Source of the DNA: a virus
DNA length: 27,908 nucleotides
IMG/VR virus record: IMGVR_UViG_3300006875_000114
Coordinates: 1-27,908 of that record
Reading direction: 5' to 3' (one strand)
Position 1 is the first letter of the stretch, and every line of letters begins with the position of its first letter. The notes below the pieces were generated by a model, which was given only the letters and a program-made list of their open reading frames with translations, was not told where the DNA came from and did no database searches. Below, piece by piece: positions 4,936 to 10,813 of the stretch. Position numbers and translations under genes: made by a program.

Positions 4936-5272
4936 GTGTCACGGGTGTGACGAGGAGCAGCTGAAAGACGAAGCCCTCTTGCAAAGAGTGATGGAAGACG
5001 GAGCTGTTTTCGCTCGTGCTGAGGTTCTCCATAGTTACTTCCATAAGTTTGATCAGGGAGAGGGAGTTACCGGCGTGGTTGCTCTGGCTGAATCACACAT
5101 ATCCGTTCATACTTGGCCGGAACATCGTTACATGGCTGTGGATATCTTTATGTGCGGAGACTGTAACCCATACGACACTTTCGATTACATCATCACCAAC
5201 ATGGTTATCGGTGAATACAGCGTTGATTGTATTGATCGCGGGTCTGAATATACGAACTTACATAACGTATAA
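4907..5272 (+). CDS. speD: S-adenosylmethionine decarboxylase proenzyme (SpeD/SpeH type)
   Basis: AdoMet decarboxylase makes decarboxylated AdoMet, the aminopropyl donor for spermidine. The proenzyme self-cleaves to form a pyruvoyl group. At 121 residues it has the usual length of the short bacterial class. With GTG 4907 as start, the cleavage site is Glu62-Ser63 in AESHISVHTWPE, with His68 and Cys83 (DIFMCGDCNP) exactly where the Thermotoga-type enzyme has Ser63, His68 and Cys83. All key residues are present, so it should be active. The N-terminus MPLGRHVILECHGCD also matches the family. It overlaps the upstream gene; a T4-type late promoter sits across its stop. Phage speD genes are known in cyanophages. 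Role: raising spermidine for DNA packaging or host physiology (inference). Confidence 0.95.
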   Translation: MPLGRHVILECHGCDEEQLKDEALLQRVMEDGAVFARAEVLHSYFHKFDQGEGVTGVVALAESHISVHTWPEHRYMAVDIFMCGDCNPYDTFDYIITNMVIGEYSVDCIDRGSEYTNLHNV

Positions 5273-5275
5273 ATA
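5268..5275 (+). promoter_or_regulatory. T4-type late promoter (TATAAATA)
   Basis: An exact TATAAATA overlaps the speD stop codon, about 55 bases before the PqqA-like gene. In T4-type phages this word alone, read by the late sigma factor, defines late promoters. It would drive the PqqA-like peptide and the secreted protein. Confidence 0.65.
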
Positions 5276-5330
5276 TTACGAGCAGTGTATACACTATAAA
5301 AAAAATCATATTTTGATCAAGGAGAAGAAC

Positions 5331-5405
5331 ATGAACTGGACAACACCTACTTTTGAAGATTTTAGACTCGGTTTTGAAATTACACTCTACATCAACAACC
5401 GCTAA
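5331..5405 (+). CDS. pqqA: PqqA-like peptide precursor of pyrroloquinoline quinone
   Basis: ATG 5331 to TAA 5405 encodes 24 residues, with a strong ribosome site AAGGAG (5319-5324) six bases upstream. The peptide has the PqqA layout: a Trp-x-x-Pro N-terminus, then D-F-R-L-G-F-E-I-T-L-Y and a short I-N-N-R tail, very like the 23-residue PqqA of Klebsiella. Glu16 and Tyr20 have the required E-x3-Y spacing; in the PQQ pathway these two side chains are cross-linked by PqqE and become the cofactor. No pqqB-E genes are in the window, so the peptide would feed host enzymes. A late promoter lies just upstream. Confidence rests on several invariant positions in a very short peptide. Confidence 0.85.
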   Translation: MNWTTPTFEDFRLGFEITLYINNR

Positions 5406-5435: not shown

Positions 5436-6068
5436 ATGAAGAAGATTATCTTTGCTGTACTGTGCGCAGTTTTTGCACAAGTGTCTTTTGCTGACCAGCT
5501 AGCAACTGATAAGAAGATTTATCGAGACACAGTTATTTGGCCCATCATAAGTAACATTGTTCTTTGCCGGCCGAATGCATCTGGTTTAGGCCCAAACCCA
5601 ACCAAAGCGCAGATGGATGCATGCTGGGCTAGTATGCAGGGTAAGGGATTTAGGTTCCCCACGTTAGAAGCAATCAACGCAGAAGTTGATCGATCCACTA
5701 CTTTGCATGCTAACATCGCTCGTGGTAAATGGCAGATTAAGACTGCACAGACGCCCGAAGAGCTTCCTTATTGGAACAATCGATGTGGTGCACCAGACAA
5801 GATTACTCAGATCCCAATGGCTACAACGTTTGAAGAATGTGAAGCTAAGGTAAGTAAGTGGTCCAATCAAGAAACCAAGGCTGCGTTTCTCTCACGCGAT
5901 TATATCGTAGACGAGAATGGTAACTGGGTCGATCATCGCAATGCATATACAATCCAACCCGGTTGGGCAAAGAGACTCGGTCATACTAATCCAAGATTTG
6001 CAACCAATATTTGGAACAGCAAGCTAGCTACGTTGAAAGCTAAGTTGGCTGCAGCTGCTCCTAAGTAA
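5436..6068 (+). CDS. secreted protein of unknown function
   Basis: A 210-residue protein with a textbook signal peptide (MKKIIFAVLCAVFAQVSFA, then D-Q), so exported to the periplasm or beyond. AAAGGAG precedes ATG 5436. The mature part has four cysteines (in LCRPN, DACW, NRCG and FEECE), which could make two disulphides. It is otherwise rich in Trp, Asn and Lys, with a C-terminal Ala/Lys helix (LATLKAKLAAAAPK). It follows the PqqA-like gene by 30 bases on the same predicted late transcript, so a periplasmic role linked to PQQ enzymes is tempting, but nothing in the sequence proves it. Lysis or superinfection roles are alternatives. Confidence 0.75.
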   Translation: MKKIIFAVLCAVFAQVSFADQLATDKKIYRDTVIWPIISNIVLCRPNASGLGPNPTKAQMDACWASMQGKGFRFPTLEAINAEVDRSTTLHANIARGKWQIKTAQTPEELPYWNNRCGAPDKITQIPMATTFEECEAKVSKWSNQETKAAFLSRDYIVDENGNWVDHRNAYTIQPGWAKRLGHTNPRFATNIWNSKLATLKAKLAAAAPK

Positions 6069-6081
6069 TAAGAGGTTATAC

Positions 6082-6201
6082 ATGTTAAGCACATTATTTT
6101 GGTTAGCTGTCGGTGCATTCATCGGTTGGAACTTACCTCAGCCTGAATTCGCCAAGCGTATTCAACAAATCATAGAAGAAAAAATAGATATCTTTAAATA
6201 A
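6082..6201 (+). CDS. 39-residue membrane-anchored peptide
   Basis: ATG 6082 to TAA 6201, with AAGAGG upstream. One hydrophobic segment at the N-terminus (LSTLFWLAVGAFIGWNL) is followed by a short charged helix (FAKRIQQIIEEKIDIFK), suggesting a small inner-membrane protein with a cytoplasmic helix. It lies 13 bases after the secreted protein and 14 before the next gene. Function unknown. Confidence 0.6.
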   Translation: MLSTLFWLAVGAFIGWNLPQPEFAKRIQQIIEEKIDIFK

Positions 6202-9338: not shown

Positions 9339-10022
9339 ATGTTATTTGCTTTTCGTAATTTTAAAAGAAATAAAATGGTTAATTTATCAGCTATTAGTAT
9401 AAAGCATTTCATACCAGATGCTGAAATTTTTTGTATAACTTTTTATGAAAATAGTCCAAATGAATATGATGATCAAGAGCCTCTTTTGCCTTTTATTACT
9501 GAAAAAAAAGTAAAAACAAAATATCCTAATACTAATGGCAAACCTCATGATCATCCAGATGTAAATGCAACAAGCGGAGAAGGAAATCCTGACACTACAA
9601 AATTTTTCTCTGAAGGTTATAATGAAATATGGAATCTATTAAAGCATAGAGAAGAAAAAGTTTTAATGTTAGGAGAAGATTGTTTTTTTACAACCGGAAA
9701 AGTTTTAGAAGAATTGATACAAAATCAAAATTCTTATGCAGTTGCTTTTGGTTCTTGGTGCTGGTGGGGGTATGAAGAAAAGTGGGCAAACGCTACCTGT
9801 ATTTGTTTTGATTTAAAACTTTTAAATGGAATATTTCCAATTTCCGAAGAAGGGCCAGCATTTATAGAAGCTCATTTATACAATATATTAACTAGAATTC
9901 CACCTGAATATAGATATTCTATAAAACATAGAACATTTGAAAATTATCATGGAGATGGTATAAGAACAAATTCTTCTTTAGCAATTGAAAATGAACTTAA
10001 AAAAGCAGGTATATTGAGATAA
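9339..10022 (+). CDS. conserved protein, possibly glycosyltransferase-like
   Basis: A 227-residue protein from ATG 9339, behind AAGGA. The N-terminus (a basic loop, then LSAISIKHFIPDAEIFCITFYEN) looks like the first strand-helix-strand of a GT-A-type fold. VLMLGEDCFF near residue 110 is placed like the acidic metal motif of such enzymes. It continues with a Trp-rich stretch (SWCWWGYEEKW) and a C-terminal NYHGDGIRTN motif. It follows the gmd/colD-like pair by 11 bases and shares their AT-rich composition, so transfer of a deoxysugar is a reasonable guess. I have no catalytic proof, and a virion-associated role is possible. Confidence 0.55.
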   Translation: MLFAFRNFKRNKMVNLSAISIKHFIPDAEIFCITFYENSPNEYDDQEPLLPFITEKKVKTKYPNTNGKPHDHPDVNATSGEGNPDTTKFFSEGYNEIWNLLKHREEKVLMLGEDCFFTTGKVLEELIQNQNSYAVAFGSWCWWGYEEKWANATCICFDLKLLNGIFPISEEGPAFIEAHLYNILTRIPPEYRYSIKHRTFENYHGDGIRTNSSLAIENELKKAGILR

Positions 10023-10027
10023 ATATA

Positions 10028-10056
10028 TGTACAAGATTTGTTGATGGTGTTATAAT
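10028..10056 (+). promoter_or_regulatory. early-type promoter of the tmRNA (TGTACA-N17-TATAAT)
   Basis: TGTACA at 10028-10033, a 17-base spacer and a perfect TATAAT at 10051-10056 give the same layout as the early promoter modules. The start site would fall near 10058-10064, right at the first tmRNA nucleotides. A GATAAATA word at 10018 is only a weak late-promoter lookalike. Confidence 0.75.
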
Positions 10057-10093
10057 AGGTCTGTTGGACGCGGGTGCGAATCCCGCCACCTCC

Positions 10094-10164
10094 ACCTAAG
10101 TATACTGGCGTAATATGGCACTCTAAAGCCTAAAAACGAAATCTGTGTTCCAGTATACTTAGGT
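10094..10164 (+). repeat. tmRNA intervening segment with 15-bp inverted repeat
   Basis: ACCTAAGTATACTGG (10094-10108) is the exact reverse complement of CCAGTATACTTAGGT (10150-10164). It continues directly into the acceptor stem, so the precursor would have a 22-bp helix (10087-10108 with 10150-10171) closed by a 41-nt loop. This is the part removed between the mature 3' end of the acceptor piece and the mature 5' end of the coding piece. Confidence 0.9.
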
Positions 10165-10271
10165 GGGGGTGTTATAGATTCGACAGCGGATTGAAAGAAC
10201 ACCGGAGAATCGGCAATGCGAAAGCCGTTAGGATTGGGATTTCCCGGTCGAAGAAGCAAAAAACTATAAAT

Positions 10272-10316
10272 GCCAATGATGACATTTATGAGCAGGAGTA
10301 TGCTCTAGCAGCATAA
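10272..10316 (+). other. tmRNA proteolysis-tag reading frame
   Basis: Resume codon GCC at 10272, then AAT GAT GAC ATT TAT GAG CAG GAG TAT GCT CTA GCA GCA and TAA at 10314-10316. The 14-residue tag ANDDIYEQEYALAA starts AND and ends in the ALAA degradation signal read by ClpXP/ClpA. The AND start and EYALAA end resemble alphaproteobacterial tags. Confidence 0.93.
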
Positions 10317-10331
10317 CCTCTCTGGGGTTTC

Positions 10332-10370
10332 GCCACCTGTCCTTATCACCCAATCAGGTGGCACTCTTAA
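10332..10370 (+). terminator. hairpin at the 3' end of the tmRNA coding piece
   Basis: GCCACCTG (10332-10339) pairs with CAGGTGGC (10355-10362), eight pairs with a 15-nt loop. The following ACTCTTAATATTT is only moderately T-rich. It may be the last helix of the coding piece, a terminator, or both. A smaller hairpin AACCTC/GGGGTT overlaps the tag stop codon (10315-10329). Confidence 0.5.
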
Positions 10371-10387
10371 TATTTGGACACTATATC

Positions 10388-10813
10388 ATGGAGACTCACT
10401 CGCGTAAGCGAGATAAGAAAATTCTCGACTTCCTTTCAAAAGCTGCCGAAGCAGCGGATCACGTAGGAATACGTGCTAAGCTTGCTGCTGCAGTTGTCAT
10501 TAAAAATGAGATCATATCGATTGGATTTAATCGAAGAAAGACTCACCCTTTTCAAGCTCAGTTTCAAGCAAACGATAAGCAGATTTATCTTCATGCTGAG
10601 AATGACGCCATCAATCGTGCTTTAAAGTACATTACAAAAGAAGAACTTAAGAAAGCTACTCTATATGTAGCTAGGGTTAAGTATCGAGATAACAAAACAA
10701 AGAAAGCTATTTGGGCTGAAAGCAAACCATGTTCTGGTTGCCAGAAAGCTATCCATTCTCATGGAATCAAGACTGTTGTTCATACGTATTCAGAAGGATA
10801 TAAATATATGTAA
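10388..10813 (+). CDS. zinc-dependent cytidine/deoxycytidylate deaminase-like protein
   Basis: A 141-residue member of the cytidine/dCMP deaminase superfamily. The zinc motif is complete: H69-A-E71 (YLHAENDAINRAL) supplies one ligand and the proton-shuttling glutamate, and P114-C115-S-G-C118 supplies two cysteines. The likely reaction is dCMP to dUMP, feeding ThyX downstream, but tRNA or other nucleotide deamination cannot be excluded. ATG 10388 is preferred; the frame stays open to 10358, but that start lies inside the tmRNA hairpin. Its 3' end contains an exact late promoter word that serves the next gene. Confidence 0.8.
   Translation: METHSRKRDKKILDFLSKAAEAADHVGIRAKLAAAVVIKNEIISIGFNRRKTHPFQAQFQANDKQIYLHAENDAINRALKYITKEELKKATLYVARVKYRDNKTKKAIWAESKPCSGCQKAIHSHGIKTVVHTYSEGYKYM
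10799..10806 (+). promoter_or_regulatory. T4-type late promoter (TATAAATA)
   Basis: An exact TATAAATA, encoded within the last codons of the deaminase gene (Y-K-Y-M), lies 30 bases before the next start at 10836. It is well placed to open the late gene block that follows. Confidence 0.7.

Follow-up and report, generated by a model that had tools for sequence, protein, structure and literature searches.

A lone pqqA gene in a T4-like virus that probably supplies the PQQ precursor to a methylotrophic host

The peptide PqqA (PF08042/TIGR02107) is the precursor of the cofactor pyrroloquinoline quinone (PQQ) and is consumed one for one per cofactor. More peptide can therefore mean more PQQ, and a phage could raise the cofactor with a gene of 75 bp. 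Methanol dehydrogenase is a PQQ enzyme, the formaldehyde that it makes is fixed by the ribulose-monophosphate (RuMP) enzymes HPS and PHI, and the Methylophilaceae are methanol consumers in seas and lakes. One methylotroph has five pqqA genes, of which three are lone and one lone copy is highly expressed (PMC9851590); the same paper cites the conversion to PQQ of PqqA added to a cell extract. In Acetobacter, overexpression of pqqAB increased PQQ by 29% and that of the whole operon eightfold (PMC7936290), so that the gain from precursor alone may be modest. The idea of a phage pqqA is not new. The accessible text on the Lake Baikal phage population VP_266 describes a T4-like phage with a predicted Methylophilaceae host, a methanol dehydrogenase gene and a single pqqA proposed to serve that enzyme, and it reports no hps-phi linkage (PMC7678222, 2020); pqqA is also listed for viruses of reservoir sediments (PMC13188868, 2026).

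The window analysed here is the whole of a 27,908-base virus record of IMG/VR. It contains T4-like myovirus genes (a virion structural protein, a primase, a spanin pair, ThyX, a ribonucleotide reductase and a permuted tmRNA), and pqqA sits among these phage genes and not in a stretch of host DNA. The same virus is present in an overlapping 33.9 kb contig that adds about 25 kb on the upstream side of the window and has ORFs resembling a B-family DNA polymerase and a UvsX-type recombinase (L219; by inspection). Megablast with the window as query gave no similar phage record. The locus resembles that of VP_266 in its T4-like setting and single pqqA, but differs in that no methanol dehydrogenase is found in the 33.9 kb contig or recognised among the window ORFs. 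The features of the locus are collected in Table 1.

Table 1. Features around pqqA in the window and the related cassette in other phage contigs (window positions unless a contig is named).
Feature	Position	Strand	Remarks
speD, S-adenosylmethionine decarboxylase	4907..5272	+	PF02675 122.7 bits, TIGR03330 124.3 bits; precedes pqqA
TATAAATA, T4 late-promoter consensus match	5268..5275	+	Overlaps speD stop codon; 55 nt before pqqA ATG
Shine-Dalgarno AAGGAG	5319..5324	+	Read from sequence; ATG 6 nt downstream
pqqA, 24-residue PQQ precursor peptide MNWTTPTFEDFRLGFEITLYINNR	5331..5405	+	PF08042 and TIGR02107 above curated cut-offs; HMM compared with shuffles
210-residue protein, apparent N-terminal signal peptide	5436..6068	+	30 nt after pqqA
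39-residue apparent membrane peptide	6082..6201	+	Relative (68%) directly 3′ of pqqA in contig L300
Permuted two-piece tmRNA	10005..10407	+	Ends the variable slot starting at pqqA
dCMP deaminase	10358..10813	+	Right-hand collinearity marker; 79–81% identical in L322 and L318
(speD-)pqqA-hps-phi cassette	L322:3482-5195; L318:896-2246; L308:1501-2855		T4-like phages

The first-pass annotation had described a 24-residue ORF with a strong ribosome site and the PqqA pattern, including E16-x3-Y20, and had named alignment to a PqqA model as a check. Translation of the + strand confirms the ORF with AAGGAG ahead of its ATG, and both of the residues from which PQQ derives are in place. Its length lies within the PqqA range of about 22–29 residues, and both PqqA models match well above their curated cut-offs (Pfam PF08042, 39.1 bits, E 7e-10, cut-off 21.1; NCBIfam TIGR02107, 40.8 bits, E 1.4e-10, cut-off 20). 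PHROGs has no family that matches the gene. As a control, an HMM was built from bacterial PqqA peptides alone and applied to the window, translated in six frames, and to 100 dinucleotide-preserving shuffles; the window gives 45.5 bits and the best shuffle 14.1 bits, which excludes a chance match. The peptide shares with bacterial PqqA its length, the W-x-x-P...R-x-G-F-E-x-T-x-Y core, the E16-x3-Y20 pair and a basic last residue, whereas the gene differs in lying in a phage, beside speD and without adjoining pqqBCDE. At the level of sequence, the ORF is confirmed as a real pqqA gene.

The absence of pqqB–E from the window, as annotated earlier, also holds. A tblastn search of the window gave no match to pqqB, C, D or E, and an HMM for PqqE gave none in either the window or the overlapping contig. 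In the viral loci sampled, too, tblastn detected no pqqB–E next to pqqA, whereas pqqB adjoins pqqA in all 17 of 17 bacterial pqqA loci. Linkage to pqqBCDE, usual but not obligatory for PqqA, is thus missing from the window and the viral loci; this does not exclude membership of the family, because the chromosome of one methylotroph has pqqA copies that stand alone (PMC9851590). Four large viral records gave PqqE HMM matches, but these fell below the cut-off and were taken as other radical-SAM proteins.

The gap between speD and pqqA is 58 nt. The TATAAATA motif occurs five times in the window, each time on the + strand, compared with 2.9 expected on both strands, which is only weakly above chance, and the copy before pqqA is no more than suggestive of a late promoter. 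The 210-residue neighbour has no Pfam, NCBIfam or PHROGs match and a pattern scan gave no relatives outside the same virus; a weak relative (29% over 118 amino acids) lies directly 5′ of pqqA in L300.

A search for pqqA in related phages had been proposed, and T4-like relatives do carry it: pqqA is present in nine of the 40 records that encode the virion protein of the window, most of the 40 being fragments, and in four of the nine it lies on a contig of 133–214 kb that also has a T4 gp23 capsid gene. Glu and Tyr are kept in all sister PqqA peptides. Contig L308, with a virion protein 70% identical to that of the window, has the closest phage PqqA, MWATPTFEDFRLGFEISLYINTR (PTFEDFRLGFEI[TS]LYIN), and the gene order pqqA-hps-phi (HPS, TIGR03128, 248 bits, cut-off 200; PHI, TIGR03127, 164 bits, cut-off 160). 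The order in L318 is pqqA-hps-phi-tmRNA-dCMP deaminase, and in L322 homologues of 65 and 125 amino acids are followed by speD-pqqA-hps-phi-tmRNA-dCMP deaminase, with speD 60% identical to that of the window. An HPS scan yielded seven viral IMG/VR contigs that carry hps-phi; HPS matches in Staphylococcus and Salmonella 'phage' records are distant (31–43%) and were not counted as phage HPS. The window shares the landmarks of L322 in equal order, and the speD-pqqA pair is therefore orthologous and the cargo behind it variable: the slot between pqqA and the tmRNA holds the 210-residue protein, the 39-residue peptide, a GDP-mannose dehydratase and an aminotransferase in the window, and hps-phi in L322 and L318. 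The tmRNA of the window scores as alpha-type in Rfam, and those of L322, L319 and L318 match the betaproteobacterial model.

Since HPS and PHI fix the formaldehyde that comes from PQQ-dependent methanol dehydrogenase, pqqA and hps-phi belong to one pathway, and their joint cassette suggests phage reinforcement at both ends of methanol use. If this is correct, the speD-pqqA-hps-phi cassette would push both the oxidation of methanol and the fixation of formaldehyde in infected cells. A hairpin with a T-run lies between pqqA and hps (L322:3913-3990, CCCGTG/CACGGG; L318:965-1044, CCCACG/CGTGGG), and its arms have changed and are complementary. It is a possible attenuator, which would yield more message for pqqA than for hps; the folding is no better than that of shuffles (z −1.0 and −1.5). 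A PQQ alcohol dehydrogenase was found in only one of 30 records tested. Positions 34049-35731 of G352 (the record of L050), a 72 kb viral record, encode a PQQ-dependent alcohol/methanol dehydrogenase (608 bits with neighbours in frame), and this record also has a lone pqqA, as in the Baikal phages.

These observations make it likely that pqqA of this T4-like phage feeds PQQ synthesis in a methylotrophic host, where methanol dehydrogenase would be kept loaded during infection. The phage peptide would be made in the host cell, and host PqqD/PqqE, PqqF/G, PqqB and PqqC would cross-link Glu16 and Tyr20, excise the pair and oxidise it to PQQ. The additional PQQ would leave methanol dehydrogenase loaded while host genes shut down, so that the flow of energy and formaldehyde could continue despite the shut-down, with the formaldehyde in the sister phages handled by phage-encoded HPS and PHI in the RuMP cycle. 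The PQQ-using host anticipated by the first-pass annotation is supported by the relatives with pqqA directly 5′ of HPS/PHI genes and by nine Methylophilales-phage records, and a methylotroph of the Methylophilaceae type is the most probable host. The betaproteobacterial tmRNAs of L322, L319 and L318 also favour this reading, and it agrees with the several pqqA copies, some of them lone, in methylotrophs (PMC9851590). Against it, the window contains no methylotrophy gene besides pqqA and its tmRNA scores as alpha-type, pqqA appears in only nine of the 40 related T4-like records, and a PQQ alcohol dehydrogenase is rare among the records tested.

The same peptide and chemistry could instead operate in a Burkholderiales/Oxalobacteraceae-like host that is not a methylotroph and uses PQQ for glucose or alcohol dehydrogenases. 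The nearest bacterial PqqA peptides found are from Oxalobacteraceae/Burkholderiales and not Methylophilaceae (MTWTTPTAIDFRFGFEITLYIANR, identical in 19 of 24 residues), and on this account such a host retains a small probability. However, the pattern used on bacterial genomes demanded DFR..GFE, which in itself selects that group, the closer phage relatives with the PTFEDFRLGFEI signature encode HPS and PHI, and the window locus is collinear with the hps-phi-bearing L322. Among 300 genomes drawn from the order Burkholderiales, 62 have pqqA, often in 2–7 copies and including genomes of 1.3–1.8 Mb. Several of these small genomes (G009, G163, G230, G260, G290 and others) have three separate copies each, and one genome of 2.4 Mb has seven. 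The dosage of the precursor thus seems important to hosts as well.

Methylotrophs are the hosts of the cultured phages with pqqA. The carriers in INPHARED are Melnitz (four isolates), P19250A, Venkman, MEP301, MEP401 and MEP402, together with the uncultured ctXG6705. All nine cultured-phage records have Methylophilales/Methylophilaceae hosts, and pqqA is unannotated in all ten; the records of Melnitz-1 and ctXG6705 instead annotate an ORF on the opposite strand. These phages resemble the window in having a lone pqqA with a Shine-Dalgarno site, and their host is a methylotroph, but their PqqA is of a different subtype (EMRFGFEVTMY). The Melnitz paper has PQQ solely as a medium supplement and does not mention pqqA as a phage gene (PMC9004378), and phage pqqA is likewise unmentioned in the MEP401/402 and Frontiers 2021 OM43-phage papers (PMC8024684, PMC10580990). 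Culture pairs already exist in the OM43 strains with Melnitz, Venkman, MEP301 and MEP401/402. The two matches to Acinetobacter phage MD-2021a, which ranked best by tblastn, were rejected as phage pqqA, as that stretch is bacterial chromosome carrying ppk, fur and the complete pqqABCDE operon; the record of that name (L002, CAKLQF020000010.1) is mislabelled.

A scan of IMG/VR with a degenerate DNA pattern for PqqA gave at least 120 contigs; in almost every one, pqqA stands alone and is preceded by a Shine-Dalgarno site. In a second scan only the N-terminal half was fixed and the Glu and Tyr codons were left free, to avoid circularity; it again gave at least 120 contigs with a lone pqqA, 90 of those listed being common to both scans. 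The counts are of contigs, including redundant ones, and hence not of independent phages. Among the matches listed in the second scan, Glu and Tyr are each present in 120 of 120 although neither was demanded, so that the E–Y conservation named earlier as a test is borne out. The same 120 of 120 listed matches have the stop at the identical codon, and thus the same ORF length, and an AGG, GGA or GAG triplet at most 16 nt before pqqA. The listed matches comprise 108 distinct DNA sequences, with a mean pS of 0.575 and pN of 0.070; pN/pS is 0.12 overall and 0.22 on the codons left free by the pattern, and the Tyr codon is TAC in 56 and TAT in 52. Judged by these substitution rates, the phage copies are coding genes under purifying selection.

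This conservation bears on the idea that the phage uses the peptide as a decoy or competitive inhibitor against host PqqD/PqqE, to lower PQQ or block its synthesis; with no enzymes of its own, a lone peptide resembling the substrate could titrate PqqD. A decoy could do without the reactive Glu and Tyr, yet they are kept in 120 of 120 phage matches listed and in all sisters, and the hps-phi linkage points to support of methylotrophy; inhibition is thus very improbable. A reading of the ORF as passive host DNA or a functionless chance match, as its length of merely 75 bp might suggest, is scarcely credible given 45.5 bits against a shuffle maximum of 14.1, the contradicting selection on the phage copies (pN/pS 0.12, 108 distinct sequences) and a speD neighbourhood kept in two phages.

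Judging from the scans, pqqA may rank with the more frequent metabolic genes in phages of Methylophilaceae. On balance, precursor supply appears to be a widespread and mostly unannotated strategy of methylotroph phages from several unrelated lineages, some T4-like members having the speD-pqqA-hps-phi cassette. The 75-bp gene escapes standard gene calls and PHROGs, and the open-access literature yielded no published report of the spread of unannotated phage pqqA, of hps-phi in phages or of the pqqA-hps-phi cassette.

Two further features were observed upstream in the window. Positions 1-3400 contain a repeated leader of 45–80 nt, TGTACTTATTTTCATA...ACAATGG...ATGAAnAAnGGnACAAA-ATG/GTG, before many small genes (copies at 198-277, 613-682, 878-947, 1136-1215, 1756-1835, 2005-2084 and 2333-2412), as though copies had been made of a single early promoter/ribosome-site module; seemingly similar starts occur in L130, the overlapping contig, and in L322. 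A 162-residue ORF at 2375-2863 is based on an 18-nt repeat, in at least 15 registers, has the residue pattern DNAxVxDNA and resembles a left-handed β-helix hexapeptide protein.
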